Positions 15,001-51,192 of a stretch of DNA of 64,000 bases are shown one piece after another. Within the stretch, counting starts at the first letter, position 1; each line of letters opens with the position of its first letter. The notes beneath the pieces were generated by a model. That model saw nothing but the letters and a program-made list of their open reading frames with translations, was not told the DNA's origin and made no database searches. A program made the translations under genes and the position numbers. Source of the stretch: Gemmatimonadota bacterium (GTDB lineage Bacteria > Gemmatimonadota > Gemmatimonadetes > Longimicrobiales > Gaopeijiaceae); NCBI GenBank assembly GCA_022560615.1, contig JADFSR010000022.1:1-64000 (forward strand), given 5' to 3'.

Positions 15001-15425
15001 GAAGGCTGTTGAAGGAGTACAGCGGGCCGCCACCCGTGGTAACGCACGGGTCCCCGGGACGCCACGGCCCCAGAGGGCACCCGCGCATCGCGCGGGTCGC
15101 GGAGCTTCGAAGTCATAGCCGTCGCGGGCACCGCCGCCGAAGGCGGTGGTCCGAGGAGCTCCAACGACGGAGATGGGGCCGTGCCACCCCAACCCGCAAA
15201 CTCGTCTGTTCATTTCATTCCGGTGTTGGGCACATGGCGACCAACGCTTTCGCGTCGGTGCCCGCGCGGTTGATCCAGCGTCTCTCCTCGTCGGACCACC
15301 GCCTTCGGCGGCGGTGCCCGCTCGGCTACGACTCCTCGTCGTTCCTTGCCTGAACGCGCGCAAGCACGGGGCACCCACGCCATGGCGTGGGTCGCGCGGC
15401 CCACTGTACTTCTTCAACAGCCTTC
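15001..15425. repeat. Long imperfect palindromic element, copy 1 (hslU-argF junction)
   Basis: This 425-bp non-coding block fills the gap between hslU and argF. Its two ends are inverted copies of each other over 28 bases with two mismatches (15001-15028 with 15398-15425). Inside are a perfect 30-base inverted repeat (15125-15154 with 15291-15320) and several strong local hairpins (ACCCGCGC/GCGCGGGT, ACCCACGCC/GGCGTGGGT). A 28-base core (15161-15188) is identical to copy 2 at 36391-36418. Conserved nested pairings are CACGGCCCC (15063) with GGGGCCGTG (15175), CCGTCG (15119) with CGACGG (15165), and CCCAAC (15188) with GTTGGG (15225). The left and right halves are also related to each other in inverted form. 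No convincing reading frame is present. It could be a structured RNA or a MITE-like element. Confidence 0.85.
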
Positions 15426-17586: not shown

Positions 17587-18531
17587 CTACTCGCCTCGCG
17601 GGTGCGCGTCCCTGTAGACCCGAAGCAAGCGGTCTTTCGTCGTGTGGGTGTAGATCTGGGTCGTAGACAGCGAAACGTGGCCGAGCAGCTCCTTGACCGC
17701 GAGCAGATCGGCTCCCGCTTCCAACAGATGGGTTGCGAAGGAGTGTCGCAGCGCGTGAGCGGAGAGTCCACGCGCGCCGGCGGCCACGTCGAAACACGCG
17801 CTCACCGAGGTCTGGATGGAGCGGCGCGAGAGCCGTCCACCGCGTGCGTTCACGAGCAGCGCGTCGTCCGTCCGGTTCGGTACCTCTGCGCGCCGTGGCT
17901 CGTAGTGAGCGATCGCCCTGAGAGACGCATCGGAAACGGGAACGATGCGTTCCTTCCTGCCCTTGCCCATCACGCGGACCAGCTTCGAGCCCCGATCGAT
18001 CGAATCAAGGTCCACAGCGTACAACTCGGAGAGCCGTAGGCCGCTCCCATAGAGAAGCTCGAGAATGACGAGGTCGCGGGCGCTACTCAGCGTGTTCTGT
18101 GCGGCTCGCTTCTCCGCCTCAGCGAAGACGTCTCGCACGTCCCCACGGGTCAGATGCCCAGGGAGCGTTTTCTCGGTCTTGGGAGCTCGCACGGCGCTCG
18201 CCGGGTTTCTCGGTATGCGGTCCTCGCCGTGCAAGAATCTGAAGAAGGATCGAGTTGCCGAGAGCTTTCGACCGACCGTGCGTTTGCTCAGTCCCTTGCG
18301 ACCGAGCCAGCCCATGAAACCCCGCAAGGCAAGACGATCTACGTCCTCGTCGGCCCAGCGCCAATCCGCGTGGCCGAGGTACCCGGTCAGGAATTCGCTC
18401 AGCTGGCGTAGGTCGAGCTCATAGGCCTCGACCGTGTGGCCCGAGAGTTGCCGTTCGTCGGCGAGGTGTCGTAGGAAGTCTCGAACCTCGGTGCTCGCCG
18501 GGTGACCCTCCAGGAGCCCGCCCTCAGTCAC
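17587..18531 (-). CDS. xerC: Tyrosine recombinase XerC
   Basis: This is a site-specific recombinase that resolves chromosome dimers at dif with its partner XerD. The N-terminal SAM-like core-binding domain is followed by the catalytic domain with Arg (GSGLRLSEL), Lys (GKGRKERIVP), HxxR (HALRHSFATHLL), the LGHVSLSTTQIYTH segment and the nucleophilic Tyr in it. I take the GTG at 18531, which overlaps the trmFO stop by eight bases and gives 314 aa; a GTG at 18567 would add 12 residues. The order topA-trmFO-xerC-hslV-hslU is a conserved neighbourhood also seen in Bacillus (with codV = xerC), supporting XerC over a mobile-element integrase. Confidence 0.9.
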   Translation of the reverse strand: MTEGGLLEGHPASTEVRDFLRHLADERQLSGHTVEAYELDLRQLSEFLTGYLGHADWRWADEDVDRLALRGFMGWLGRKGLSKRTVGRKLSATRSFFRFLHGEDRIPRNPASAVRAPKTEKTLPGHLTRGDVRDVFAEAEKRAAQNTLSSARDLVILELLYGSGLRLSELYAVDLDSIDRGSKLVRVMGKGRKERIVPVSDASLRAIAHYEPRRAEVPNRTDDALLVNARGGRLSRRSIQTSVSACFDVAAGARGLSAHALRHSFATHLLEAGADLLAVKELLGHVSLSTTQIYTHTTKDRLLRVYRDAHPRGE

Positions 18532-19903
18532 CAGCCGCTGGTGCGACGAAAGCCCCGGGCTCGGCACTCACCGACGCGGCCAGCTTTCCCATGTCCGCAA
18601 CGGAAAGTCCGTGTCCCACCATCCAGGTCAAAAAATCCTCCTGGGCACGCGCGGCGAGCATCTGTCGCCTCTGCTTCTTGCCCTTGATCCGCCTTTCGAG
18701 CGGCTCGACCAAACCCCAGTTCGAGTTCATCGGCTGAAAGTGACCTGGTTTGGCCTCCCTCAGGTATTGGAAGAGCCCGCCGAGCATGGTCGTCGGGGGC
18801 GGCACGATCGCCTCTTCGCCAGCGAGAACTCGAGCCAGGTTGATGCCCGCCAGGATTCCGCTCGCCGCCGACTCGGTGTATCCCTCGACGCCAGTGAGCT
18901 GCCCTGCGAAAACGACGTCCGGACGAGACGCCGGGGCCCCGTACCGCGAGAGCCGCTCGGGGAAGTTCAGATAGCTATTCCGGTGAATCGAACCCAGGCG
19001 TAGGAATTCCGCGTCGGCAAGCCCCGGAATCATGGTGAAGATTCGGCGCTGCTCACCAACCCTGAGACGAGTCTGAAAACCGACCATGTTCCACATTTGG
19101 CCAGCGCGATCTTCGCGGCGGAGCTGGACGACCGCCCAGGGTCGGTCGCCCGTCCGTGGATCGGTGAGACCGATCGGCTTCATGGGTCCGAAGCGAAGGG
19201 TGTCGAGACCACGGGACGCCATGACCTCGACGGGCAAACACCCCTCGAAGTACGGCACCGCATCCCAATCGTGGCCCTCGCGGGCTTGACCGGTGTTCAA
19301 CGCCTCGATGAACGCGGCATACTCCTCCTGGTTCATCGGACAATTCAGATAGTCGGAGTCCTCGTCGAAGCGGCCCGCTTCGAAGACCACGCTCTCGTCC
19401 ACGCTGTCGCGGTGCACGATCGGAGCGATCGCGTCGAAGAATGCGAGGCCGCCATCGCCGAGAGCCTCCTGGATCGCGCTCGAGAGCGCGTCCGAGGTGA
19501 GAGGGCCCGTGGCGATGATCGCAGGACCTTCGGGCAGCGCCGTGCACTCCTCCCTCACGACCCGGATTCGTGCCTCGGCCTCCACCGCGGCGGTCATCGC
19601 CCGCGAGAAGAGGCCCCGGTCCACCGCGAGCGCCGATCCGGCCGCCACACGCGACTGATCGGCCGAGCGCAGAAGAACCGATCCGAGCGCTCTCATCTCC
19701 CGCTTGAGCTGGCCGTGGGCGTTCTCGGGGCCCTCGCTCTTGAACGAGTTCGTGCACACGAGCTCGCCGAGGTCCTCGGTCTGGTGTGCCTCGGTGTTGC
19801 GCACGGGACGCATCTCAACGAGGTGAACGTCGTGCCCCCTCTGAGCGAGCTGGAGCGCGGCTTCACAACCGGCCAGCCCTCCTCCGACCACAGTGACCGT
19901 CAC
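18524..19903 (-). CDS. trmFO: tRNA (uracil-54-C5)-methyltransferase TrmFO, folate/FAD dependent
   Basis: This flavoprotein uses 5,10-methylenetetrahydrofolate to make ribothymidine-54 in the tRNA T loop. The FAD-binding start is TVVGGGLAGCEAALQLA, followed by the family signature ELVCTNSFKSEGPENAHG with the functional Cys. The C-terminal ARAQEDFLTWMVGH block is present; 459 aa is full length. Its presence, rather than TrmA, is a useful taxonomic hint. It starts inside the topA stop codon. Confidence 0.95.
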   Translation of the reverse strand: MTVTVVGGGLAGCEAALQLAQRGHDVHLVEMRPVRNTEAHQTEDLGELVCTNSFKSEGPENAHGQLKREMRALGSVLLRSADQSRVAAGSALAVDRGLFSRAMTAAVEAEARIRVVREECTALPEGPAIIATGPLTSDALSSAIQEALGDGGLAFFDAIAPIVHRDSVDESVVFEAGRFDEDSDYLNCPMNQEEYAAFIEALNTGQAREGHDWDAVPYFEGCLPVEVMASRGLDTLRFGPMKPIGLTDPRTGDRPWAVVQLRREDRAGQMWNMVGFQTRLRVGEQRRIFTMIPGLADAEFLRLGSIHRNSYLNFPERLSRYGAPASRPDVVFAGQLTGVEGYTESAASGILAGINLARVLAGEEAIVPPPTTMLGGLFQYLREAKPGHFQPMNSNWGLVEPLERRIKGKKQRRQMLAARAQEDFLTWMVGHGLSVADMGKLAASVSAEPGAFVAPAAGD

Positions 19904-30618: not shown

Positions 30619-31656
30619 CTAGACGCGCAGTGCCAGCCCGAGCGATAACAGCAGCATCGGGGCGGCCTCGTCGATAGACATGTTACGCGCTGCGTCCGGG
30701 TGAACCGGAACTCGTTCGAACGGGTTCACCAGCTCCGTTTCCACGTTCATTCGCGTTCCGAGCGCCTCGACCATCCCGGGAATACGGGCGCCACCTCCAC
30801 TCAGGAATACGCGCCCGATGGTCTCGCCGTCCTCACGGGTCATGAGGAATGCACTTGCACGTTCGATGCCAACCGCCACTTCGTCGGCGGAGGCCTCGAC
30901 GATCTGCTCGAGGTTCTCGACGGTTTCCTTGCCTTGCACCACGTCTTCGGCCTGCTCGGCAGTCAGCCCCCGCTCGCGCTGGAGGTCCTCCCGGATCTTG
31001 CGCGAACCGAAAGGAATGTCGCGCGTCAGGATCGGCACGCCGTTCTCGAGGATGTTCACGTTCGTCGTCTCATGGCCGATGTTGACGAGGCCGATGATCC
31101 CATCCAGGGCATCCGGATAGTTGTGCTCGAAGGCGTTGTGGAGTGCGAATACCTCGATGTCGATGACGACGGGGTTCACCCCTGCGTCCTGCAGCAAGCC
31201 AACCTTGTTGTCCACCAACTCCCGCTTGGCCGCGACGAGTAGCACCTCCATCTGAAGCCCGTCGTCGTGAGGGTTCAGAATCTGGAAGTCCAGCTCGACG
31301 CTCTTGATGTCGAAGGGTACGTGCTGCTCCGCCTCCCACCGGATCACGTCGCGAGCGTCCGACTCCTTCATCCGATCCATCTCGATCTTCTTGATGATGA
31401 CGTCGTGGCCACCCACAGCGGTCACGACTTCGGCACCCTTGAGGTCCATTTCCTCGAAGAGCCCCATGACGGCATCGGATACGAGACCGTAGTCCATGAC
31501 CTCCCCTTCCACGATCGCGTCGGGAAGCAGCGGGCACATGGCCACTCGCGTCACTTCGGGTTGGTCACCCGAGTGATCGACCTCCACGACCTTCACGAAC
31601 CCGGACCCGATGTCCAGACCGATGGAAGATCTCTTTCTTCGTCCAAAGAGCGCCAT
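30619..31656 (-). CDS. pilM: Type IV pilus actin-like ATPase PilM
   Basis: This cytoplasmic actin-fold protein binds the N-terminus of PilN. The FtsA/MreB-like phosphate-1 motif is IGLDIGSGFVKVVEV, and the second nucleotide motif is LVNIGHETTNVNIL. The adenosine motif region is FLSGGGARIPGM. 345 aa is full length. It is the first gene of pilMNOPQ; its ATG is about 55 bases downstream of a TTGACA-type promoter. Confidence 0.95.
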   Translation of the reverse strand: MALFGRRKRSSIGLDIGSGFVKVVEVDHSGDQPEVTRVAMCPLLPDAIVEGEVMDYGLVSDAVMGLFEEMDLKGAEVVTAVGGHDVIIKKIEMDRMKESDARDVIRWEAEQHVPFDIKSVELDFQILNPHDDGLQMEVLLVAAKRELVDNKVGLLQDAGVNPVVIDIEVFALHNAFEHNYPDALDGIIGLVNIGHETTNVNILENGVPILTRDIPFGSRKIREDLQRERGLTAEQAEDVVQGKETVENLEQIVEASADEVAVGIERASAFLMTREDGETIGRVFLSGGGARIPGMVEALGTRMNVETELVNPFERVPVHPDAARNMSIDEAAPMLLLSLGLALRV

Positions 31657-31710
31657 GCGGTGCCTTCACCAGGAGAGACTGAAAACAAATTTCCCCAAGA
31701 ATGTTGATTG

Positions 31711-31740
31711 AGCTTACCACCAAAAGTTAAGTCTTGTCAA
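31711..31740 (-). promoter_or_regulatory. Candidate sigma70-type promoter of pilMNOPQ
   Basis: On the - strand a perfect TTGACA -35 box is followed after 18 bases by TAAGCT, a weak -10. The start would lie about 45-50 bases before the pilM ATG. The stretch is notably AT-rich compared with its surroundings. Confidence 0.55.
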
Positions 31741-32299
31741 GAACAATGTGCCGATCGGGCTTAACAAAGTTTTGGTAAACATTTGGCGCCAAAATCCTGC
31801 GGCGAGAGCCGGTGACTCCGTTCGGCCGGCGCGTCGTTTAGCTGACGCTCTATCATTACAGGGTTGAAACTCTCCGTGACAGCTTCGGCTCGGTGCCAGC
31901 TTTAGCTGTCGGCGCAGGGACTGCCTGCATCGGAGTCTTGGAGATGGATCCCCAGATGGCGACATGGAGGCCGCGTCACTCGACTGGCGTCGAGGGGGTG
32001 CAGTTTCTCGACTAGACCAGGCACCTCGGGAGACGTCGGATCCTCGGCTTGACACGGCCGGTGCGACTTTACGGAGCGCACTTCCATTCAGGTGGGACTA
32101 CCGCCGCTTCTGGAGATGGCAAGGAGCGCGCCAACTATCGCTCACGGTGCGGTGCGAGGCAGAAGGTGGCCGAAGAAGCAGGAAAACAGGGATGTTCGGC
32201 GTTTGTGACATTACGTTGCACGGGCGGCTGTGGCGCGGAAAACTCTGCGTGTGAGGGAAAAAACTACTCGGATCAAACCGCTTGGCTTGGTGACGACCA
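31741..32299. other. Non-coding region upstream of pilM with a perfect 12-bp palindrome
   Basis: About 560 bases without a supportable gene lie upstream of the pilM promoter. I see a perfect 12-bp palindrome TTTGGCGCCAAA at 31782-31793, about 42 bases upstream of the -35 box, which could be an operator; an AT-rich TTAACAAAGTTTTGGTAAAC just beside it; and a GACAGCT/AGCTGTC hairpin near 31880-31910. Open frames on the + strand have no family resemblance and look like chance. A small RNA is possible but not demonstrated. Confidence 0.4.
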
Positions 32300-32345
32300 A
32301 TGGACGCAAGCTCGCCGAGCGTCCGAGACGGCTACATGGTTGGAT
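32300..32345. repeat. 46-bp direct repeat, copy A, after the PilX-type gene
   Basis: This block is 44/46 identical to copy B at 34844-34889, in the same orientation. It holds a bulged hairpin GGAC-GCAA-GCTC-GCC-GAGC-GTCC; in copy B one of the two differences turns a stem pair into G:U and the other falls in the bulge, so the fold is kept. The two copies enclose the minor-pilin genes exactly. Confidence 0.85.
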
Positions 32346-32346
32346 G

Positions 32347-33417
32347 CTAGCGCGGTCCCAGAGACCGAGGACCTCGGATTGGAACCGGCCTGGCGAGATC
32401 CGGAGACTCGAGAGCGGCGGCAGCCCAGCACGTCGACCCGACGATCGACGCGCCGGTCTCGACGCTCGCGCCGCCGGCCGAACGGACCAACCCGCGCACG
32501 GTGGCCACGCCGCGAAGCGTGAGCCGACCGCTCACGATGATCAGCCCGTAAAACTGCGTGTCGAGCATGTCGGCATCTCCCGTGACCACGAGCAAGCCCT
32601 GGCCGGCACCACCTACCGTGGCGAGGTCACCCTCTGCGAGGATCGTCACAAAATGGTGCCCGCAGGGTCGGGTCGGACGGTCGGGGTCACCCCAGTTCCA
32701 GGCGTCCTCGGTGACGCAGACACCGCCCCGTTCCCGTGGTGCCGGCGTGCCCGTCCCAGCGACGTGGACCCGAATCCGGGCGCGTAGCGAGTCGATGTCC
32801 AGGAGACCCAGGGCCGATACGACATCAAGAGGCTCGGTTGCCGTGGGCGGAAGCGCACCGGTCGTGATGAGCGAGTCCAAAGCCGCGCTCCACGGCTCGC
32901 AGCGGTCGAGCTGCTCTGGCGTCAGAGACCGGTTCACGCGGCTGCCGTCGATTGTTCCATCGACTCGAACGAGGCTCCCCTCCCCGTAGACCAGGACGGC
33001 ACCCATCGCTGCGACACGGGCGACCGGATCAAGGATCCATATGGGCCGCGATACCGTCGCTGGGGCCACCTGACCCCGCTTGCCCCACCCCTCGGCCAGC
33101 CACACTTCGCGTGAGAGGCGCCGGATCCATCGCGAGTAGCGCGCGTCGCGTACGGTGCCGCCGGCGGAGTCGGTCGACTGCCACAGCGGAGTCGAGGCGC
33201 GTCCGGGTCCGACATCCAGTCCGAGAGCGGTATTCACTGCGGCTTCAGCGGCCAGACGCGCTCCGAGCTGGTCAACCCCCGCCCGGGCCGCGAGATACTC
33301 GAATCGAGCGAGGAGCAGTAGGCCGTGCGCCACCGCGGTGATGGCCATCATGAGCAGCACAACGATGATCAGCGCTGCGCCCTCCCTGGCGCGCGGCCCG
33401 CCCCCCTTTCCGATCAC
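32347..33417 (-). CDS. pilX: PilX/GspK-type minor pilus assembly protein
   Basis: The N-terminus (MIGKGGGPRAREGAALIIVV) leads into one long hydrophobic helix, AALIIVVLLMMAITAVAHGL, with a prepilin-like Gly before it but no Glu at position 5, as in PilX and GspK proteins that initiate pili. The rest (356 aa in total) is a globular domain with IVSGRLTLRGVATVRGLV-type beta repeats near the end. The GTG at 33417 overlaps the pilW stop (GTGA) and decides the start. The first codons lie in a 25-bp repeat also present at 38786, which explains the odd Gly-rich leader. Confidence 0.8.
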   Translation of the reverse strand: MIGKGGGPRAREGAALIIVVLLMMAITAVAHGLLLLARFEYLAARAGVDQLGARLAAEAAVNTALGLDVGPGRASTPLWQSTDSAGGTVRDARYSRWIRRLSREVWLAEGWGKRGQVAPATVSRPIWILDPVARVAAMGAVLVYGEGSLVRVDGTIDGSRVNRSLTPEQLDRCEPWSAALDSLITTGALPPTATEPLDVVSALGLLDIDSLRARIRVHVAGTGTPAPRERGGVCVTEDAWNWGDPDRPTRPCGHHFVTILAEGDLATVGGAGQGLLVVTGDADMLDTQFYGLIIVSGRLTLRGVATVRGLVRSAGGASVETGASIVGSTCWAAAALESPDLARPVPIRGPRSLGPR

Positions 33418-33419
33418 CC
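33395..33419. repeat. 25-bp repeat at the pilW/pilX boundary
   Basis: These 25 bases are identical to 38786-38810, just downstream of the TMTC-like gene. On the - strand the unit reads GGGTGATCGG, then AAAGGGGGGCGGGCC. Here it supplies the stop of pilW and the start and first codons of pilX. Confidence 0.8.
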
Positions 33420-34103
33420 CCCTAGGTAGCCGAGCCAGTGCCACGCGCCGCCGTCCTGCAATCGAATCCATTCGAGCGCCAGGGACCCTCCTCTCTTCAC
33501 GAAGCCGCTCGGCGGCGTGTCGAACACTTCCGGTGTCAGCGGCTGCCGCCCGCCGCGGCCTCGGCGGTAGCGGAGCGCTGCGCCGGAAACGTGATACGAG
33601 CCGCGCTCGAATAGCCTGGCGAGCACGATCGACTCCTCGGGGGTGACCGAGATCTGCCACCGCTGCAGCTCTGTCCGAGGGTCCGTGGCACAAAGGTCCG
33701 AGGTAGGCCGAACGCTCAATAGATCGGCTCGAATCCACGCTCCCTGCCCGGTCAGCAGCAAGACTGAGTCCTTCTCGGGCGCAGGAGCGCGCATTCCCGA
33801 CCAGGCGACCATGAGATCCGGCGCCAGTGCCCCATCGGGACACACGACACCCACACCCCGGAAAGCCCGCAGGCTAATCGAATCTGGTGCGAAATCCACC
33901 CAGTCGACGCCTCGAACCCCGAATCGCAGCTCTCGACGCAACACGACTCGAGAGACACGCAACGCCGCAAGGATCTCTGACCTCTGCGTCAGGCGGAGCC
34001 CGACCGACCGGACCCTGGCGAGTCCCGCGAGTGAGAGCTGGACTACGAGAAGCCCGCATATCAACGCGATCAGGACCTCAGCGACCGTCGCCCCATTTCT
34101 CAC
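33414..34103 (-). CDS. PilW-type minor pilin
   Basis: The protein starts MRNGATVAEVLIALICGLLVVQL, a class III prepilin signal with processing after Gly4 and Glu at +5, followed by the hydrophobic stalk helix. The rest (229 aa) is a globular pilin-like domain with no other known motif. The GTG start overlaps the stop of the PilV-type gene (GTGA), which selects it over a longer open frame. The position between PilV-type and PilX-type genes supports PilW. Confidence 0.78.
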   Translation of the reverse strand: MRNGATVAEVLIALICGLLVVQLSLAGLARVRSVGLRLTQRSEILAALRVSRVVLRRELRFGVRGVDWVDFAPDSISLRAFRGVGVVCPDGALAPDLMVAWSGMRAPAPEKDSVLLLTGQGAWIRADLLSVRPTSDLCATDPRTELQRWQISVTPEESIVLARLFERGSYHVSGAALRYRRGRGGRQPLTPEVFDTPPSGFVKRGGSLALEWIRLQDGGAWHWLGYLGG

Positions 34104-34420
34104 GAATCCGTCACAGGCACGACGCCAGCCACGCGTAAGAAAACGTGCTCGTCGCGACTGAACTCCACGGTGAAACCACCGTCTGGCTCCACGCTCCAAT
34201 GGATTCGCCCGCCGGCCACGTCCTTAGACCCCTGGCCGGGGGTCGCGGTCAGCGAGAGCGAGTCGGCGGTGCCCTCGAGCGCCGACACGGCCCGCTCGAT
34301 CGCCTCGGCCTCGGCCATCGTTCTCGATGCCACGACGACGATTCCCACGGCACCCAAGATCGCGACCTCGAGCACGACGAGTGCGACGATGACCTCGACC
34401 AACGAGAAGCCGGACTTCAC
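34100..34420 (-). CDS. PilV-type minor pilin
   Basis: A canonical prepilin signal (MKSG, then FSLVEVIVALVVLEVAILG, Glu5 present) and only 106 residues define a small minor pilin. It overlaps both neighbours by four bases. PilV is the best match by N-terminus and gene order. Confidence 0.8.
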   Translation of the reverse strand: MKSGFSLVEVIVALVVLEVAILGAVGIVVVASRTMAEAEAIERAVSALEGTADSLSLTATPGQGSKDVAGGRIHWSVEPDGGFTVEFSRDEHVFLRVAGVVPVTDS

Positions 34421-34851
34421 CGCCTCCGTACCCTTCCGTATCCGGAAACGACCAGTGACCGCTCCGCCTCACCACGCCGGAACGTGAGCGTCTCGCTCGC
34501 TACCCGTCCCAAAGCCATCGCATCATACGCGAGCTGGGTCTCAGTCCGTCCACGAGCGAGTTCGAGAGTGACGCCGAGGTCGCTTCCGAGCGAGAGAACG
34601 CGCACGACCGAATCGGTCTGGGTGACCCATGCCCGGAAGGGATCGCCCCCAAAGTGAACGATGATGCCCCCCTTTCCGAGCGCCCGGACACGGGCTTCAG
34701 CAATGAGACCGACGACCGACTCGCGTGCGGCGACGACCGTAGACGAGTCGCGGTACCTACGCGCGGCCGGTGCGAGAGACGCCACCGTCATCGCGAAGAT
34801 TGCGACGACCATGATCGTTTCGACGAGGCTGTATCCACGGGACATGGACAC
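34417..34851 (-). CDS. FimT/GspH-type minor pilin
   Basis: The prepilin signal is MSMSRG, then YSLVETIMVVAIFAMTV with Glu5, followed by a GspH-like beta domain (EARVRALGKGGIIVHF, SLGSDLGVTLELA). It is 144 aa from the GTG at 34851 or 142 aa from the ATG at 34845; both starts fall within the 46-bp repeat, whose GGCGAG may serve as ribosome-binding site. First gene of the minor pilin cassette. Confidence 0.82.
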   Translation of the reverse strand: MSMSRGYSLVETIMVVAIFAMTVASLAPAARRYRDSSTVVAARESVVGLIAEARVRALGKGGIIVHFGGDPFRAWVTQTDSVVRVLSLGSDLGVTLELARGRTETQLAYDAMALGRVASETLTFRRGEAERSLVVSGYGRVRRR

Positions 34852-34889
34852 AAGCTCGCCGGGCGTCCGAGACGGCTACATGGTTGGAT
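34844..34889. repeat. 46-bp direct repeat, copy B, at the FimT start
   Basis: This block matches copy A (32300-32345) at 44 of 46 positions. Here it forms the leader and start codon region of the FimT-type gene, 25 bases after the regulator stop codon. CTAGAAGGG, also found at other gene ends of this locus, is just beside it. Confidence 0.85.
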
Positions 34890-34914
34890 CGGCCCTTCTA
34901 GGACACCACTCGAA

Positions 34915-36273
34915 CTACTCGACCCCGTACTCTTGGATCTTGTAGCGAAGCGCGCGCGGAGACAGCTCGAGCAGCTCGGCGGCGTGAGTCTTGTTACCTC
35001 CCGTTCGATCCAACGCGAGCTGGATGAGGTGTTTCTCCATCCTCGCGCCGTGCCGCTTGACCGACAGGTCGTCGGAGTCCACGCCGATGCCAAGTCCCTC
35101 AGGCGCCGGGCGACGGACCGCCTCCGGCAGGTCGTCGAGCGAGATGCTCGGGCCCTCGGTCAGAACCAACGCCCGCTCCAAGACGTTCTCAAGCTCGCGG
35201 ATATTCCCCGGCCAGGCGTACGTGAGGAGTACTGCCATCGCATCCGGGTCGACGCCCTCAACCTCCACCCCCAACCGCGCACTCTGTCGCGCGAGCAGAT
35301 AGGTCACCAGCTTCGGGATCTCCTCGCTTCGGTCCCGCAGTGGCGGCAGGTGAATCGGCACGACCGCCAAGCGGTAGTACAGATCCTTCCGGAACCTCCC
35401 ATCCTCGACAGCCGCTTCTAGGTCCAGGTTGGTCGCTGAGATCACGCGTACGTCCACACGCTGGATCTCAGTGGCACCGAGTCGGCGCACCTCCCCTTCC
35501 TGAAGCGCCCGCAATAACTTCACCTGAAGCGCCCCCGGGAGTTCACCGACTTCGTCGAGGAAGAGCGTCCCCCCGTCAGCCGCCTCGAAGAGCCCCTCCT
35601 TGTCTCGGTCGGCTCCCGTGAAGGCACCCTTCACATAGCCAAAGAACTCGGACTCGAGCAGCTGCTCGGGGACACCACCACAGTTCACCGGGACAAACGG
35701 CGCCGCAGCCCGAGGACTCTCGCGGTGCAGCATGCGTGCGACAACCTCCTTGCCGGTACCGCTCGCGCCGGTCAGGAGGACAGGAGAATCGTGCTTCGCG
35801 ACTCTCTCGACGACGTGCAGCGCCTTTCTCATCGCCGGAGAGCCGACGACAAGCTCTCCGAAGCGCGCATCCGCTCTCACCTCCCGACGAAGGCGGCCGA
35901 CCTCCTTGCGCAACTGTTCCCGTTCTTCAGCCTTGCGTATCGTGAGTAGGACTTCGTCGGCACCGAACGGCTTCGCCAAGTAGTCGTATGCACCCCGCTT
36001 CATCGCCTCGACCGCCAGCTCCATGCTGCCGTACGCGGTCATCATGAGGACGAGCGCCTCACCACCTGCCTCCCGGTACGACTCGAGGAACGCGAGCCCG
36101 TCGACCCGTGGCATGCGCACGTCGCAAAGGATGAGATCGGGCTTCTGTGCGTGCGCCGTTCTCAGCCCGCTCTCACCATCCTCGGCCAGCACGACCTCGT
36201 AGTCGGCATCCCCTAGGATGAGCGAAACTGACTCTCTCAATCCGGCGTCATCATCGATGATCAGGATCTTCAC
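34915..36273 (-). CDS. NtrC-family sigma54 response regulator, PilR-like
   Basis: A complete three-domain regulator: receiver with phosphoacceptor Asp in LILCDVRMPRVDG, AAA+ domain (Walker A GASGTGKE, GAFTGAD, FLDEVGEL, WPGNIRELENV) and Fis-type HTH (NKTHAAELLELSPRALRYKI). 452 aa is standard. The start is a GTG (VKILIIDDDAG). It forms a pair with the kinase at 36577-37839, from which it is separated by the palindromic element. Lying between pilA and the minor pilins, it is the likely activator of the sigma54-type promoter in front of pilA, as PilR is in Pseudomonas and Myxococcus; the other regulator at 45221 is an alternative. Confidence 0.9.
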   Translation of the reverse strand: MKILIIDDDAGLRESVSLILGDADYEVVLAEDGESGLRTAHAQKPDLILCDVRMPRVDGLAFLESYREAGGEALVLMMTAYGSMELAVEAMKRGAYDYLAKPFGADEVLLTIRKAEEREQLRKEVGRLRREVRADARFGELVVGSPAMRKALHVVERVAKHDSPVLLTGASGTGKEVVARMLHRESPRAAAPFVPVNCGGVPEQLLESEFFGYVKGAFTGADRDKEGLFEAADGGTLFLDEVGELPGALQVKLLRALQEGEVRRLGATEIQRVDVRVISATNLDLEAAVEDGRFRKDLYYRLAVVPIHLPPLRDRSEEIPKLVTYLLARQSARLGVEVEGVDPDAMAVLLTYAWPGNIRELENVLERALVLTEGPSISLDDLPEAVRRPAPEGLGIGVDSDDLSVKRHGARMEKHLIQLALDRTGGNKTHAAELLELSPRALRYKIQEYGVE

Positions 36274-36290
36274 AGCGTCTCCACCAGTCT

Positions 36291-36591
36291 GGCAGCCCGT
36301 GGTAGAAGTACAGCGGGCCGCGTTACGGTGCCACGGCTCCAGATCCTAGGCGGGGCGACGACGCCATAGCCGTCGCTACGGATAGGAGCCCCAACGACGG
36401 AGATGGGGCCGTGCCACCGTAACCCAAGAACCGGTAAGTATTGTCACACTCGGTGTTGGGCGCAGGGGGATCGCGGCCCTGGAGGTCGTTTCTCCTCCTC
36501 GCCGTAGAACAACTACGACTCGTCGTCGTGCCTACTCCAGATCTCGCGAGACCCCTGCGCTCGGCCCACTGTACTTCTACCACGGGCTGCC
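36291..36591. repeat. Long imperfect palindromic element, copy 2 (kinase-regulator junction)
   Basis: This 301-bp block has inverted ends matching 28/29 bases (36291-36319 with 36563-36591). It shares with copy 1 the inner end sequence AAGTACAGYGGGCC, the 28-base core at 36391-36418 and the conserved pairings CACGGCTCC (36332) with GGGGCCGTG (36405), CCGTCG (36370) with CGACGG (36395), and CCCAA/TTGGG (36423/36456). The outer 15 bases of each arm are unlike copy 1, yet still pair perfectly; one arm is the last four codons plus stop of the kinase gene. Confidence 0.85.
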
Positions 36592-37839
36592 TGCCTCATG
36601 GGACTTCTCGGGGGCACCCGGAAGCCGAACGGTAAACGCCGCGCCCCCATCGTCGCAGTTCGCAGCAAGGATTTGACCGCCCATTCCGTCGACTAGGCGA
36701 GCACAGATAGAAAGACCCAACCCACTCCCCTCGCCGGGCTCCTTCGTGGTGAAGAACGGGTCGAATATGTCTTCGAGGTCGTCTTCGGCGATGCCGGGCC
36801 CGTTGTCCTCGACGCGGATCACCGCGACACGCGGGGAATTGAACACGAGGTCGATGCCATAACCTGCACCGTCCTTCGACACGCGCCGACGGTGCATGTA
36901 GTTGATGCCCTTCGGGTCATCCGCGCGCTTCGCCGGGAGGCGCATCACCTCACCCGAATCCCCGAACAGTTCCACCGAGATCCGTGGATTCTCAGTCGAC
37001 TCGACAGCGGCGAGAGCGTTCAGGAGTAGGTTCACCATGACCTGCTCGAGCCGATGACGCCCCATGACCACGTCGGGCGCGTCGCCCGACAGGGTCCACG
37101 TCATCTCGGTGCGGTCCAACTTCCCTTGGGACTCCAGCAGGTCGCGGACACGGGCCAACACCTGTGCCGGGGCGACGGGCGCGACCTCATCGTCCCGTGG
37201 ACGGGCGTAGTCGAGCAGACCTCGCACGATGCGATCGATCCTTTCGGCCTCTCCGCGAACGGAGTCCAGCAAGGCGACGTCGCCGCCCACCTTCTCGGCT
37301 CGTGCCTTGGCCACGTCGACGAACGCCATGATCGCTCCCAGCGGGTTGCCGACCTCATGCGCGATACCCGCCGCCAGGGTGCCCACAGACGCGAGGCGCG
37401 CAGTGTGGATGATCTGGTTCCGAGCTTCGATGAGGTCCTTGTTGGTCTCCTCGAGTGATTCGACGTTCTCGGCCAACAACTCCTGGTCGGCGATGAGCCG
37501 ATCCGCCATGTCGTTCACGCTCGACTGCACCTGTTGGAGCTCGAGGCTGTCCAAGGTCCCGATGCGGTGATGATAGTCGCCTCCGGCGATTCGGCGCGCG
37601 TCTTCGGCCAGTAACTCCATCGGCTTCACCATGAACTTTCCCAGAATGGCACTTCCCAAAACGAAGAGCGCCCCGAGGTCAATCGCGACGAGCACACCAA
37701 TGATGAGAGTGCGCCGGGCCGTCGACTCGATTCCAGGCAACAGTACGACGATCCCGAACAAAGCGAACAGGAGGGCAAGCACGAAGAGAAAGCCGAACCG
37801 AAACAACAGCTCTCGCCTGAGTGGGATCTGTCGAGACAT
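36577..37839 (-). CDS. Membrane sensor histidine kinase (HAMP, HisKA, HATPase)
   Basis: Two transmembrane helices (about residues 12-33 and 43-65) flank a very short outer loop, followed by a HAMP domain (KPMELLAEDARRIAGGDYHHRIG), a coiled coil, the H-box GIAHEVGNPLGAIMAF, and a catalytic domain with N box (QVMVNLLLNALAAVE), G1 (VEDNGPGIAEDDLEDIFDPFF) and G2 (GSGLGLSICARLV). 420 aa. The short sensor loop suggests it senses a membrane or cytoplasmic cue. It pairs with the regulator downstream; its last codons are part of the palindromic element arm. Confidence 0.92.
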   Translation of the reverse strand: MSRQIPLRRELLFRFGFLFVLALLFALFGIVVLLPGIESTARRTLIIGVLVAIDLGALFVLGSAILGKFMVKPMELLAEDARRIAGGDYHHRIGTLDSLELQQVQSSVNDMADRLIADQELLAENVESLEETNKDLIEARNQIIHTARLASVGTLAAGIAHEVGNPLGAIMAFVDVAKARAEKVGGDVALLDSVRGEAERIDRIVRGLLDYARPRDDEVAPVAPAQVLARVRDLLESQGKLDRTEMTWTLSGDAPDVVMGRHRLEQVMVNLLLNALAAVESTENPRISVELFGDSGEVMRLPAKRADDPKGINYMHRRRVSKDGAGYGIDLVFNSPRVAVIRVEDNGPGIAEDDLEDIFDPFFTTKEPGEGSGLGLSICARLVDGMGGQILAANCDDGGAAFTVRLPGAPEKSHEAGSPW

Positions 37840-38631: not shown

Positions 38632-38785
38632 AAATGAACTCCAATGGCCTAAGATATTGTCTGACAACGTGTTATGGTTGATAACGAGGGCTCGGTGGAG
38701 CCCTTGGGACAGGGAGTGGGAGTGGGATTTTGCAAATAACGAGGCCGTTTGCAAGACCGGGGACCCGTGCGGCAGCACGCGTGGT

Positions 38786-38817
38786 GGCCCGCCCCCCTTT
38801 CCGATCACCCTTCTAGT
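38786..38817. repeat. Repeat at the end of the first TMTC-like gene
   Basis: The first 25 bases equal 33395-33419. The overlapping segment 38800-38817 (on the - strand ACTAGAAGGGTGATCGGA) equals 50562-50579. It lies directly at and after the stop codon. A short frame beginning here (38602-38808) encodes the same MIGKGGGP start as PilX but no further similarity, so I do not call it a gene. Confidence 0.75.
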
Positions 38818-48490: not shown

Positions 48491-50578
48491 ATGCCCAACC
48501 GAGAGCCCGAGCTTGTGGCCTCCGACAACACCCAGGCAATGCTGCTGCTGGCCCGAGTGCGCCTGATCGCGACGCGGGCACTCGGTACAGCGCTGCTGTT
48601 GCTCGCCTACCTCCCGCTCCATCGATTGCTGGATCCGACGGTCGCCGGAGCTGCCGGAGCTTCCACTCGTGCGGCGGCCGAATCCGCCTGGAAGGTAGGC
48701 CTCCTGGGCACGTTGATCGTCGTGGGGCTTGCTCTCCCGCTGTCGCGCTTCGTCCCAGCTGATCGACTCGCCCGGGCTGTTCGCCCTCTCGTCGGACTTC
48801 TCGAAAGACCGGGCCGCTCCGCCTATGCGCTCTCCCTGGGATTGGCATCGTTCGGGCTTTCGGCCTGGATCGCGGTGTCCCTGTTCGGCGCGTTGCCCAC
48901 GTCGGTCGACGAGATGGTTCAGTTGCTACACGCCCAGACCCTCGCTGGTGGACGGCTCGCGCGCCCTCTCGGGGTCGCCGAGGCAGCGTGGGCCGTGCAG
49001 AACGGGCTTCTGACACCCTCCGGGTGGACCTCCGTGTACCCGCCCGGACACACCGGCTTGCTTGCCATCGGGCTCATCGCGGGGGTCCCTTGGCTCGTCG
49101 GTCCGGTCGCAGTCGGGGTCGCTACAGCGGTGTTCGCGGCAGCGCTGGAGCGTCTGCTCAGCGGCGTGTGGGTCGCTCGTCTAGCAGCGCTGCTCGTCGC
49201 GTTGGGCCCGTTCTGGCTCCTCCTTGGCGGTACGCATCTGAGCCACACGACCGCGGCGGCCGGCGCAGCGCTCGTACTGTGGACCGCACTGCTGACGCGG
49301 GACGGCTCCGCGCAGTGGGGACTGGCTGTCGGCGCATCGGTCGGTCTCTTCGTGCTCGCACGCCCTTGGGTCGGCATCGTGGTATCGACGGCCGTGATAC
49401 TGTCGGTGTGCTTGCCCCCGATCCTGACCGGACTCGAGACTCGCGGCTGGGGGCTCCGCCGCCTTGCTCTCACCTTCGCAGGCGGGGCGCCTTTTGCTAT
49501 CCTGCTCCTAGCCTGGAACCAAAGGCTCTTTGGCAACCCGTTCGCGCTGGGTTACACGGCGGCGTTCGGCCCCGCCCACGGTCTGGGATGGCACGTCGAC
49601 CCTTGGGGCAACCGGTATGGATGGGTCGAGGCGTTAGCGTATACCGGCGCAGACGCGGTCCAGTTGGGTGCGCACCTGCTCGAGACACCACTCCCCGCCC
49701 TCGCGCTTATCGGCGCCGCGCTTCTGCTCGGCGGCCTTCCAAGGGGAGCGGGGGTTCTGTGCACGTGGGCAGGCGCGGCGCTCGTGGCCAACGCGTTGTA
49801 CTGGCATCACGGTGTCCACATGGGTCCACGCATGCTCTACCACAGTTCGCCCGCGTGGGCGTCCCTCTTCGCGATCGCCGCAGTCTCCTTGGTCGGATCG
49901 GAGACAGCCCCACTCCGGCGCTATCGAGACTTCCGGGCGTGGGTCGTACTCCTGGCCCTGTTCGGAGGCCTGGCGCTCGCCCCGGGGGTTGTCCGTGGCC
50001 ATGCGCGGGTTTCGACCGCAGCCACTATGCTGCCCAGCGGCGTCGGAGAGTCGAGCGTACTGTTCGTGCACGGAAGCTGGGCATCCCGGGTCAGCGCGCG
50101 GTTGGCGAGCAGCGGCATGCGGAGGGACTCGATAGAGACCGCGCTACGCCGAAACGACATCTGTGCAGTGGACGGATACGCGCGGGGTCGCGCCCGGAGT
50201 CTTGGAGAGTCCACGGACCGGCTCGACTTCGACGCCTTGCCGGGCACGCCGGGCTCGCTCGAGCGGCGAGAACTCTCGCCCGGGAACGTGATCCGTGTCT
50301 CGCCGTCTCTCACCCCCACGCCATCCTGCTTGCGTGAGGCGCGAGCCGATCGCCTGGGTGTGATCGAGTTGGAGCCTCTGTTGTGGCAGGCCCCCCCGGG
50401 CTCCGGCGAGCGCATGGTCGTGGCGCGGGACCTGGGACCCGTCGACAACGCCAGATTGATCAGCGTTCTGCGCCGCACACCGTATCTGTACGTCGACTTC
50501 GAAGGGGAGCCCCGCCTCATGGAGTACACGGCCGGAATGGAACTGATTTGGGGCGGCGCTGTCCGATCACCCTTCTAG
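48491..50578 (+). CDS. GT-C type membrane glycosyltransferase (ArnT/GT39-like), divergent from the pilus operon
   Basis: This 695-residue protein has roughly a dozen hydrophobic helices followed by a soluble C-terminal domain of about 200 residues. The first outer loop contains LPTSVDEMVQLLHAQTL, with the Asp-Glu pair found at the active site of GT-C enzymes that use polyprenyl-phosphate sugars, and YPPGHTGLLAIGL-type loop residues. I start at the ATG at 48491 (an open frame reaches 48419). Specific family and acceptor are not clear. Its stop TAG overlaps the stop of the convergent flavin reductase gene in one CTAG. Confidence 0.7.
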   Translation: MPNREPELVASDNTQAMLLLARVRLIATRALGTALLLLAYLPLHRLLDPTVAGAAGASTRAAAESAWKVGLLGTLIVVGLALPLSRFVPADRLARAVRPLVGLLERPGRSAYALSLGLASFGLSAWIAVSLFGALPTSVDEMVQLLHAQTLAGGRLARPLGVAEAAWAVQNGLLTPSGWTSVYPPGHTGLLAIGLIAGVPWLVGPVAVGVATAVFAAALERLLSGVWVARLAALLVALGPFWLLLGGTHLSHTTAAAGAALVLWTALLTRDGSAQWGLAVGASVGLFVLARPWVGIVVSTAVILSVCLPPILTGLETRGWGLRRLALTFAGGAPFAILLLAWNQRLFGNPFALGYTAAFGPAHGLGWHVDPWGNRYGWVEALAYTGADAVQLGAHLLETPLPALALIGAALLLGGLPRGAGVLCTWAGAALVANALYWHHGVHMGPRMLYHSSPAWASLFAIAAVSLVGSETAPLRRYRDFRAWVVLLALFGGLALAPGVVRGHARVSTAATMLPSGVGESSVLFVHGSWASRVSARLASSGMRRDSIETALRRNDICAVDGYARGRARSLGESTDRLDFDALPGTPGSLERRELSPGNVIRVSPSLTPTPSCLREARADRLGVIELEPLLWQAPPGSGERMVVARDLGPVDNARLISVLRRTPYLYVDFEGEPRLMEYTAGMELIWGGAVRSPF

Positions 50579-50579
50579 T
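50562..50579. repeat. Third partial copy of the gene-end repeat
   Basis: These 18 bases equal 38800-38817 (on the - strand ACTAGAAGGGTGATCGGA). Here they carry both convergent stop codons. Confidence 0.6.
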
Positions 50580-51192
50580 CCGGCCGGGAGATAGAGATCA
50601 CGGTGCCCAGCGTAGCGTAGCTGGCCCCCCAAAGCCTCCCGACAGGTCGAAGCGCTTTCGGGTCGATCGCGGACGTGCCCGCGACGCGCTCGAGCTCAGG
50701 GTCCAAACGCAATCCGACTACACGCCCGATCATCAAGGTGTTGGGCGCATCGCCAAGGGAGACTTCTTGCTCAAGCTCGCACTCCATAACCGCTGGGCAG
50801 CCATGCACGAACGGCGCGCTGACCCGCTTCGACGGCACTGCCTCGAGACCGGCCAAGGTGAACTCGTCGACGTCGGGCGCCACGTTTGCGGACGTGGAGT
50901 TCATCGCCTCCAGGAACGGCTCGGTCACGACGTTCACACAGAAAGCGCGGCGGCTGCGAATGTTGACGAGGGTGTCCTTCGGACCGCTTGGGCGGTGCCC
51001 GATCGATACGCCGACCAGCATGGGGTTGGAAGAGAGAGCGTTGAAGTAGCTGAACGGAGCCAGGTTCGGCTCCTCGTTCACACCCCAGGTCGAGATCCAG
51101 CCGATCGGCCTCGGCACGACGAGTGAGGTGAGCAACTGATACCGGTCGCGACCCGAGATCTCGTCAGGGTCGATGGTACGTACCGCAGTCAC
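50575..51192 (-). CDS. Flavin reductase-like, FMN-binding split-barrel protein
   Basis: The fold signature is visible: YQLLTSLVVPRPIGWISTWG at the start, NLAPFSYFNALSSNPMLVGVSIG with the flavin-contact residues, KDTLVNIRSRRAFCVNVVTE, and PNTLMIGRVVGLRLD. This matches the flavoredoxin/flavin-reductase group of NAD(P)H:flavin oxidoreductases. The GTG at 51192 overlaps the stop of the upstream gene and gives 205 aa. The substrate is unknown. Confidence 0.85.
   Translation of the reverse strand: MTAVRTIDPDEISGRDRYQLLTSLVVPRPIGWISTWGVNEEPNLAPFSYFNALSSNPMLVGVSIGHRPSGPKDTLVNIRSRRAFCVNVVTEPFLEAMNSTSANVAPDVDEFTLAGLEAVPSKRVSAPFVHGCPAVMECELEQEVSLGDAPNTLMIGRVVGLRLDPELERVAGTSAIDPKALRPVGRLWGASYATLGTVISISRPD

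Follow-up and report, generated by a model that had tools for sequence, protein, structure and literature searches.

A second copy of a fimT leader beside a minor-pilin cassette, probably a lineage-specific duplication scar, in a Gemmatimonadota bacterium

Introduction

Minor pilins prime pilus assembly and shape tip binding, and turnover of the cassettes that encode them could alter adhesion or DNA uptake. According to the parts of PMC13190605 consulted here, the genomes of Myxococcus xanthus and other Myxococcota each have several fimU-pilV-pilW-pilX clusters, which may sit in the main pil locus or away from it and which differ between lineages. The genome studied below resembles them in having several minor-pilin clusters. 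In the genomes described there each cluster has pilY1, and those parts of the paper mention no leader repeat. No comparable leader repeat was reported in the titles and abstract starts found by a literature search on minor-pilin clusters, or in the same parts of PMC13190605.

We analysed a window of 64,000 nucleotides from a Gemmatimonadota bacterium (GCA_022560615.1, contig JADFSR010000022.1), in which a 46-bp sequence, R, stands at both ends of a minor-pilin cassette. Short duplication scars occur at rearrangement junctions, where a sharply bounded direct copy of nearby DNA marks the loss of genes. The extra copy of R is likewise short, sharply bounded, direct and at an apparent gene-loss junction, but unlike such scars in general it is exactly a leader up to the start codon.

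Repeat R and the genes it encloses

The features of the locus, all on the minus strand, are as follows.

30619..31656, minus: pilM, first gene of pilMNOPQ (PilM_2, E 2.5e-66)
31657..32346, minus: non-coding interval of 690 bp in place of cassette B, headed by the extra R copy
32061..32081, minus: dyad GTGCG-N11-CGCAC, common to regions upstream of other pilin cassettes
32300..32345, minus: R copy 1 (left), the extra copy, 1 nt past the pilX stop (32347) and 643 nt upstream of pilM
32347..33483, minus: pilX-like frame of cassette A with intact C-terminus (44% identity in G014)
about 33414..34133, minus: pilW-like minor pilin of cassette A (46% identity in G014; no family match)
34100..34420, minus: pilV-like minor pilin of cassette A (TIGR02523 E 8.9e-6, below cut-off; 51% identity in G014)
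34417..34845, minus: fimT, GspH/FimT-like minor pilin of cassette A (N_methyl weak; 58% identity to the G014 protein)
34844..34889, minus: R copy 2 (right), the native fimT leader, including the AT of the fimT ATG (34845-34843)
34915..36273, minus: NtrC/PilR-type sigma-54 response regulator

Re-alignment bore out the 46-bp direct repeat described in an earlier sequence-only reading: the copies at 32300-32345 and 34844-34889 have the same orientation, are identical at 44/46 positions and share a 27-nt exact run, and matching between them ends abruptly past either edge. That reading had also stated that the repeats enclose only FimT-PilV-PilW-PilX type genes. A single four-gene minus-strand cluster and nothing else lies between them, as claimed, but the names fimT, pilV, pilW and pilX are assignments from gene order and from homologues in relatives, as Pfam and NCBIfam gave a weak prepilin signature for fimT and pilV and no pilin match for pilW and pilX. 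The C-terminus of pilX is normal, so the extra R copy did not truncate it. Scanning 31600-35100 for promoters and terminators yielded nothing informative.

In 50 Markov-1 simulations of the window the longest exact direct repeat never exceeded 19 nt; thus R is not a chance match. Direct repeats that are exact over at least 22 nt and spaced 30-10,000 nt apart are uncommon: of 20 other 20-kb pieces of the same genome two contained any, and so did two of 20 pieces from G095. In the central 20 kb of the window there are two such repeats, R and a transposon-like end. R is therefore unusual for its own genome, though the ntrC-pilM locus is repeat-rich. The motif CTAG, which occurs near both R copies, was set aside, as the window contains 51 of them and one of these two is itself a stop codon.

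The sequence-only reading had proposed a genome-wide search for further copies, with many copies unrelated to pilins pointing to a general repeat family. Allowing up to three mismatches, we found two copies in the whole genome (4.5 Mb, 105 contigs), and BLAST of R against it returned nothing else of weight, the next matches having E >0.1. Of 121 family genomes, the window's own was the only one with a match to a 26-nt part of R, again at up to three mismatches; the 120 others had none. Exact searches with a 20-nt part found nothing in genome_contigs or viral_contigs, collections from which records like the window genome may be omitted. A 151-bp stretch matched nothing among plasmids or phages, and a search of genome_contigs with the fimT protein gave no match.

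Native and extra copies

We compared R with the first 110 nt after ntrC in 27 relatives. Against simple base shuffles, similarity reached p <= 0.05 in nine of these and in none of the other 18, and it was strongest in G019 (0/500 shuffles) and G014 (p 0.002). Compared with the 750 nt before pilM, R gave p <= 0.05 in 2 of 23 relatives, G011 and G023; both matches lie within pilX-like frames and were rejected as counterparts of the left copy. In 26 relatives searched for a repeat of their own leader within the interval, the only matches were two, of 19 and 24 nt. The left copy had no counterpart in the intervals of these 26 relatives, nor in the 120 other family genomes. Since some relatives show leader similarity and none has a second copy, the right copy is the native one and the left copy is extra. 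G014 and the other two-cassette relatives, the nearest of which belongs to another genus, have cassette B at that junction and no extra copy.

Cassettes A and B in relatives

Of the 121 family genomes, own genome included, 87 had pilM and 45 had this ntrC at strict thresholds. The ntrC-pilM interval was read in 22 of the 23 relatives with both anchors on one contig, and also in G091, whose ntrC anchor is doubtful, and in several split-contig cases. In the usual arrangement among relatives, ntrC is followed by cassette A (fimT-pilV-pilW-pilX), then by a second pilin cassette (cassette B) and finally by pilM. Of 23 relatives, 10 have a B-type pilW (>=285 bits) in the interval and 13 do not, G091 among the latter. 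Intervals with B measure 5.9-9.1 kb and those without B 2.6-3.8 kb, except in G091 and in G133, whose 6.6-kb interval holds a divergent second cassette and no B-type pilW. The window interval, at 3.26 kb, has cassette A only and no B.

Cassette A stays in place in nearly all relatives, G091 apart; the variable part is B, which lies outside the R copies. On a pilM tree of 25 rows the presence of B needs six changes, and well-supported branches force at least four of these. In that tree the window is grouped with G014, a near relative in another genus that has B (its locus is split across two contigs), and with G091, which is close to the window and also lacks B, in a different neighbourhood. 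The G014 ntrC homologue (C54:7130-8287) has no single open frame in the assembly, with two TGA codons within the match. The other species compared of the window's genus, G001 (99% estimated completeness), had no match to pilM or this ntrC and so provided no close same-genus comparison; the pilus system seems, from its assembly, to be absent.

Within the 690-bp interval, about 138 bp adjoining pilM (to about 31794) have 76-77% identity to G014 and G091, and the rest has no match to relatives and is mostly unrelated DNA. A remnant of cassette B was sought there by blastn and by tblastn with the relatives' frames and none was found (best E 0.001, over 23 aa).

B-type pilW genes also occur outside the interval. 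The window's own genome has one on contig C5 (276 bits), and among 20 genomes searched others were found in G007, G104, G134, G004 and G011, with a fragment in G100; in G001, G091, G029, G098, G005, G096, G143 and G133 nothing exceeded 100 bits. In a tree of B-type pilW, support was weak and branches were long around the placing of the C5 cassette, which may be the former neighbour of A or may belong to another lineage. The own genome has 19 prepilin-signature matches in all, with further minor-pilin cassettes on contigs C5 (L137, B type), C72 (L095) and C21 (L138).

Origin of the second copy

It had been suggested that the repeats are recombination sites through which the pilin cassette might be lost, duplicated or exchanged. 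R would then be a recombination substrate or cassette boundary used by RecA or a site-specific enzyme. The direct orientation and the exact bracketing of the cassette suit this idea, as does the true variability across the family of the adjoining slot, in which G133 has its divergent second cassette; we nevertheless consider it unlikely, and found no positive support for it. There are only two copies, the pair occurs in no relative, and the cassette between the repeats is the one that is kept whereas the varying one lies outside them. We recognised neither a core site nor inverted arms of any known recombinase. Among the 28 frames of the window that were scanned there is no dedicated recombinase or transposase; the single recombinase present is an Xer-type integrase (17587-18567), 14 kb away, which adjoins a GidA/TrmFO-like gene and topA in an order that we take to be housekeeping. 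Integron attC sites have the core pair RYYYAAC ... GTTRRRY; GTTGGAT is present at one end of R, but the partner core is absent from R, and attC was rejected. In principle the two copies could still recombine: at 46 bp they are close to the minimum length for RecA-dependent exchange. It is similarly doubtful that the ntrC-pilM stretch is a family-wide hotspot of minor-pilin turnover, with slot B filled, emptied and refilled, and that R is a substrate of this turnover in the window lineage, making A deletable or replaceable in some cells and so altering the pilus tip.

A different suggestion was that each copy is an RNA element. More broadly, R could be a cis-regulatory element, either an operator or an RNA leader, placed twice so that the fimT and pilM operons share a signal. 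Each copy does precede a pilus operon and run in its direction, the leader is somewhat similar across relatives, and copy 1 contains the dyad GGACGC-N11-GCGTCC. One arm of this dyad is mismatched in copy 2, however, the left copy is 643 nt from pilM, and the two weak matches before pilM in 23 relatives (G011 and G023) are inside pilX-like frames. The sequence-only reading had noted that a GGAC...GTCC hairpin is kept, one of the two changes making a G:U pair. This argument is valid on the plus strand, but the genes are encoded on the minus strand, and there the copies fold differently and no better than shuffles. Across both copies and both strands the fold z scores against shuffles were -0.23, 0.17, -0.22 and 0.66, none of which beats shuffles, and no Rfam family lay over the R copies at the gathering threshold in the window or at E up to 5 in 31600-35100. 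We therefore rejected a structured RNA element, which is unsupported, and regard a shared regulatory signal in general as improbable. Membership of a dispersed repeat family of this genome (REP or MITE) is still less probable. The genome does have MITE-like elements, some of them at the pilin locus too, but many dispersed copies would be expected and R has two in 4.5 Mb, without similarity to those elements across its length. The copy number thus largely refutes a general repeat family.

The third suggestion in the sequence-only reading, that the repeats are scars left by an earlier duplication, agrees best with these results: of the two copies the right one is native, and the left one has no counterpart in relatives and sits at the variable B junction. 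R is thus the fimT leader, and its second copy after pilX is probably a lineage-specific duplication scar. The ancestral ntrC-pilM locus probably had two tandem minor-pilin cassettes, A and B. B would then have gone from the window lineage, with a 46-bp copy of the cassette A leader placed exactly at the junction. Relatives that lack B have no such R copy, so it is the position of the copy that would link it to the loss of B.

Two routes fit these data, and we prefer neither. The leader and cassette A might have been duplicated in tandem, with the second copy then lost from the start codon onward and its leader left behind; this would explain why the copy begins directly after pilX and has the same direction. 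Alternatively, a short stretch of the leader, which lies 2.5 kb away, might have been copied into the break made by the loss of B; this requires one event. Neither a leftover of a duplicated fimT nor one of cassette B was found beside the left copy with blastn and tblastn, so neither route leaves an independent trace. Rare loss of cassette A between the R copies is a possible present effect.

By itself R is a modest clue. As a copied leader, it illustrates how whole minor-pilin cassettes may be lost and rearranged at a pilin locus, with readable scars of these changes left behind.

Other motifs and elements at the locus

About 405 nt upstream of pilM, the window contains a 21-bp dyad, GTGYG-CTCCGTAAAGT-CGCRC, whose 19-nt core was found exactly at three further places, each upstream of a minor-pilin cassette: L095 2874, L096 3312 and L097 (G104 C231:2917). 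These are a pilin cassette on C72 of the own genome and B-type cassettes placed elsewhere in G007 and G104. The four exact places compare with about 0.01 expected from base composition; the G007 and G104 sites are near copies, so the four amount to three independent cases. With two mismatches there were 9 places versus 17 for a reversed control pattern, and hence no enrichment. The dyad is possibly an operator or promoter part common to pilin operons.

MITE-like elements of about 270-420 bp with inverted ends around GAAGTACAGYGGGCC are present in the window at 15001-15425 and 36281-36601, and elsewhere at L143 14868-15225 and L149 5899-6235, making four paired elements in the 497 kb of the own genome scanned. 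Both window copies are intergenic, and one sits between ntrC and ntrB. Another MITE-like element, of 241 bp (L143 16034-16274), has a 31-nt inverted end that was also found in the window at 33393-33426, 38758-38816 and 50559-50581. This end is seen by itself both where pilW meets pilX and at the stop codon of the TPR gene upstream of pilA.
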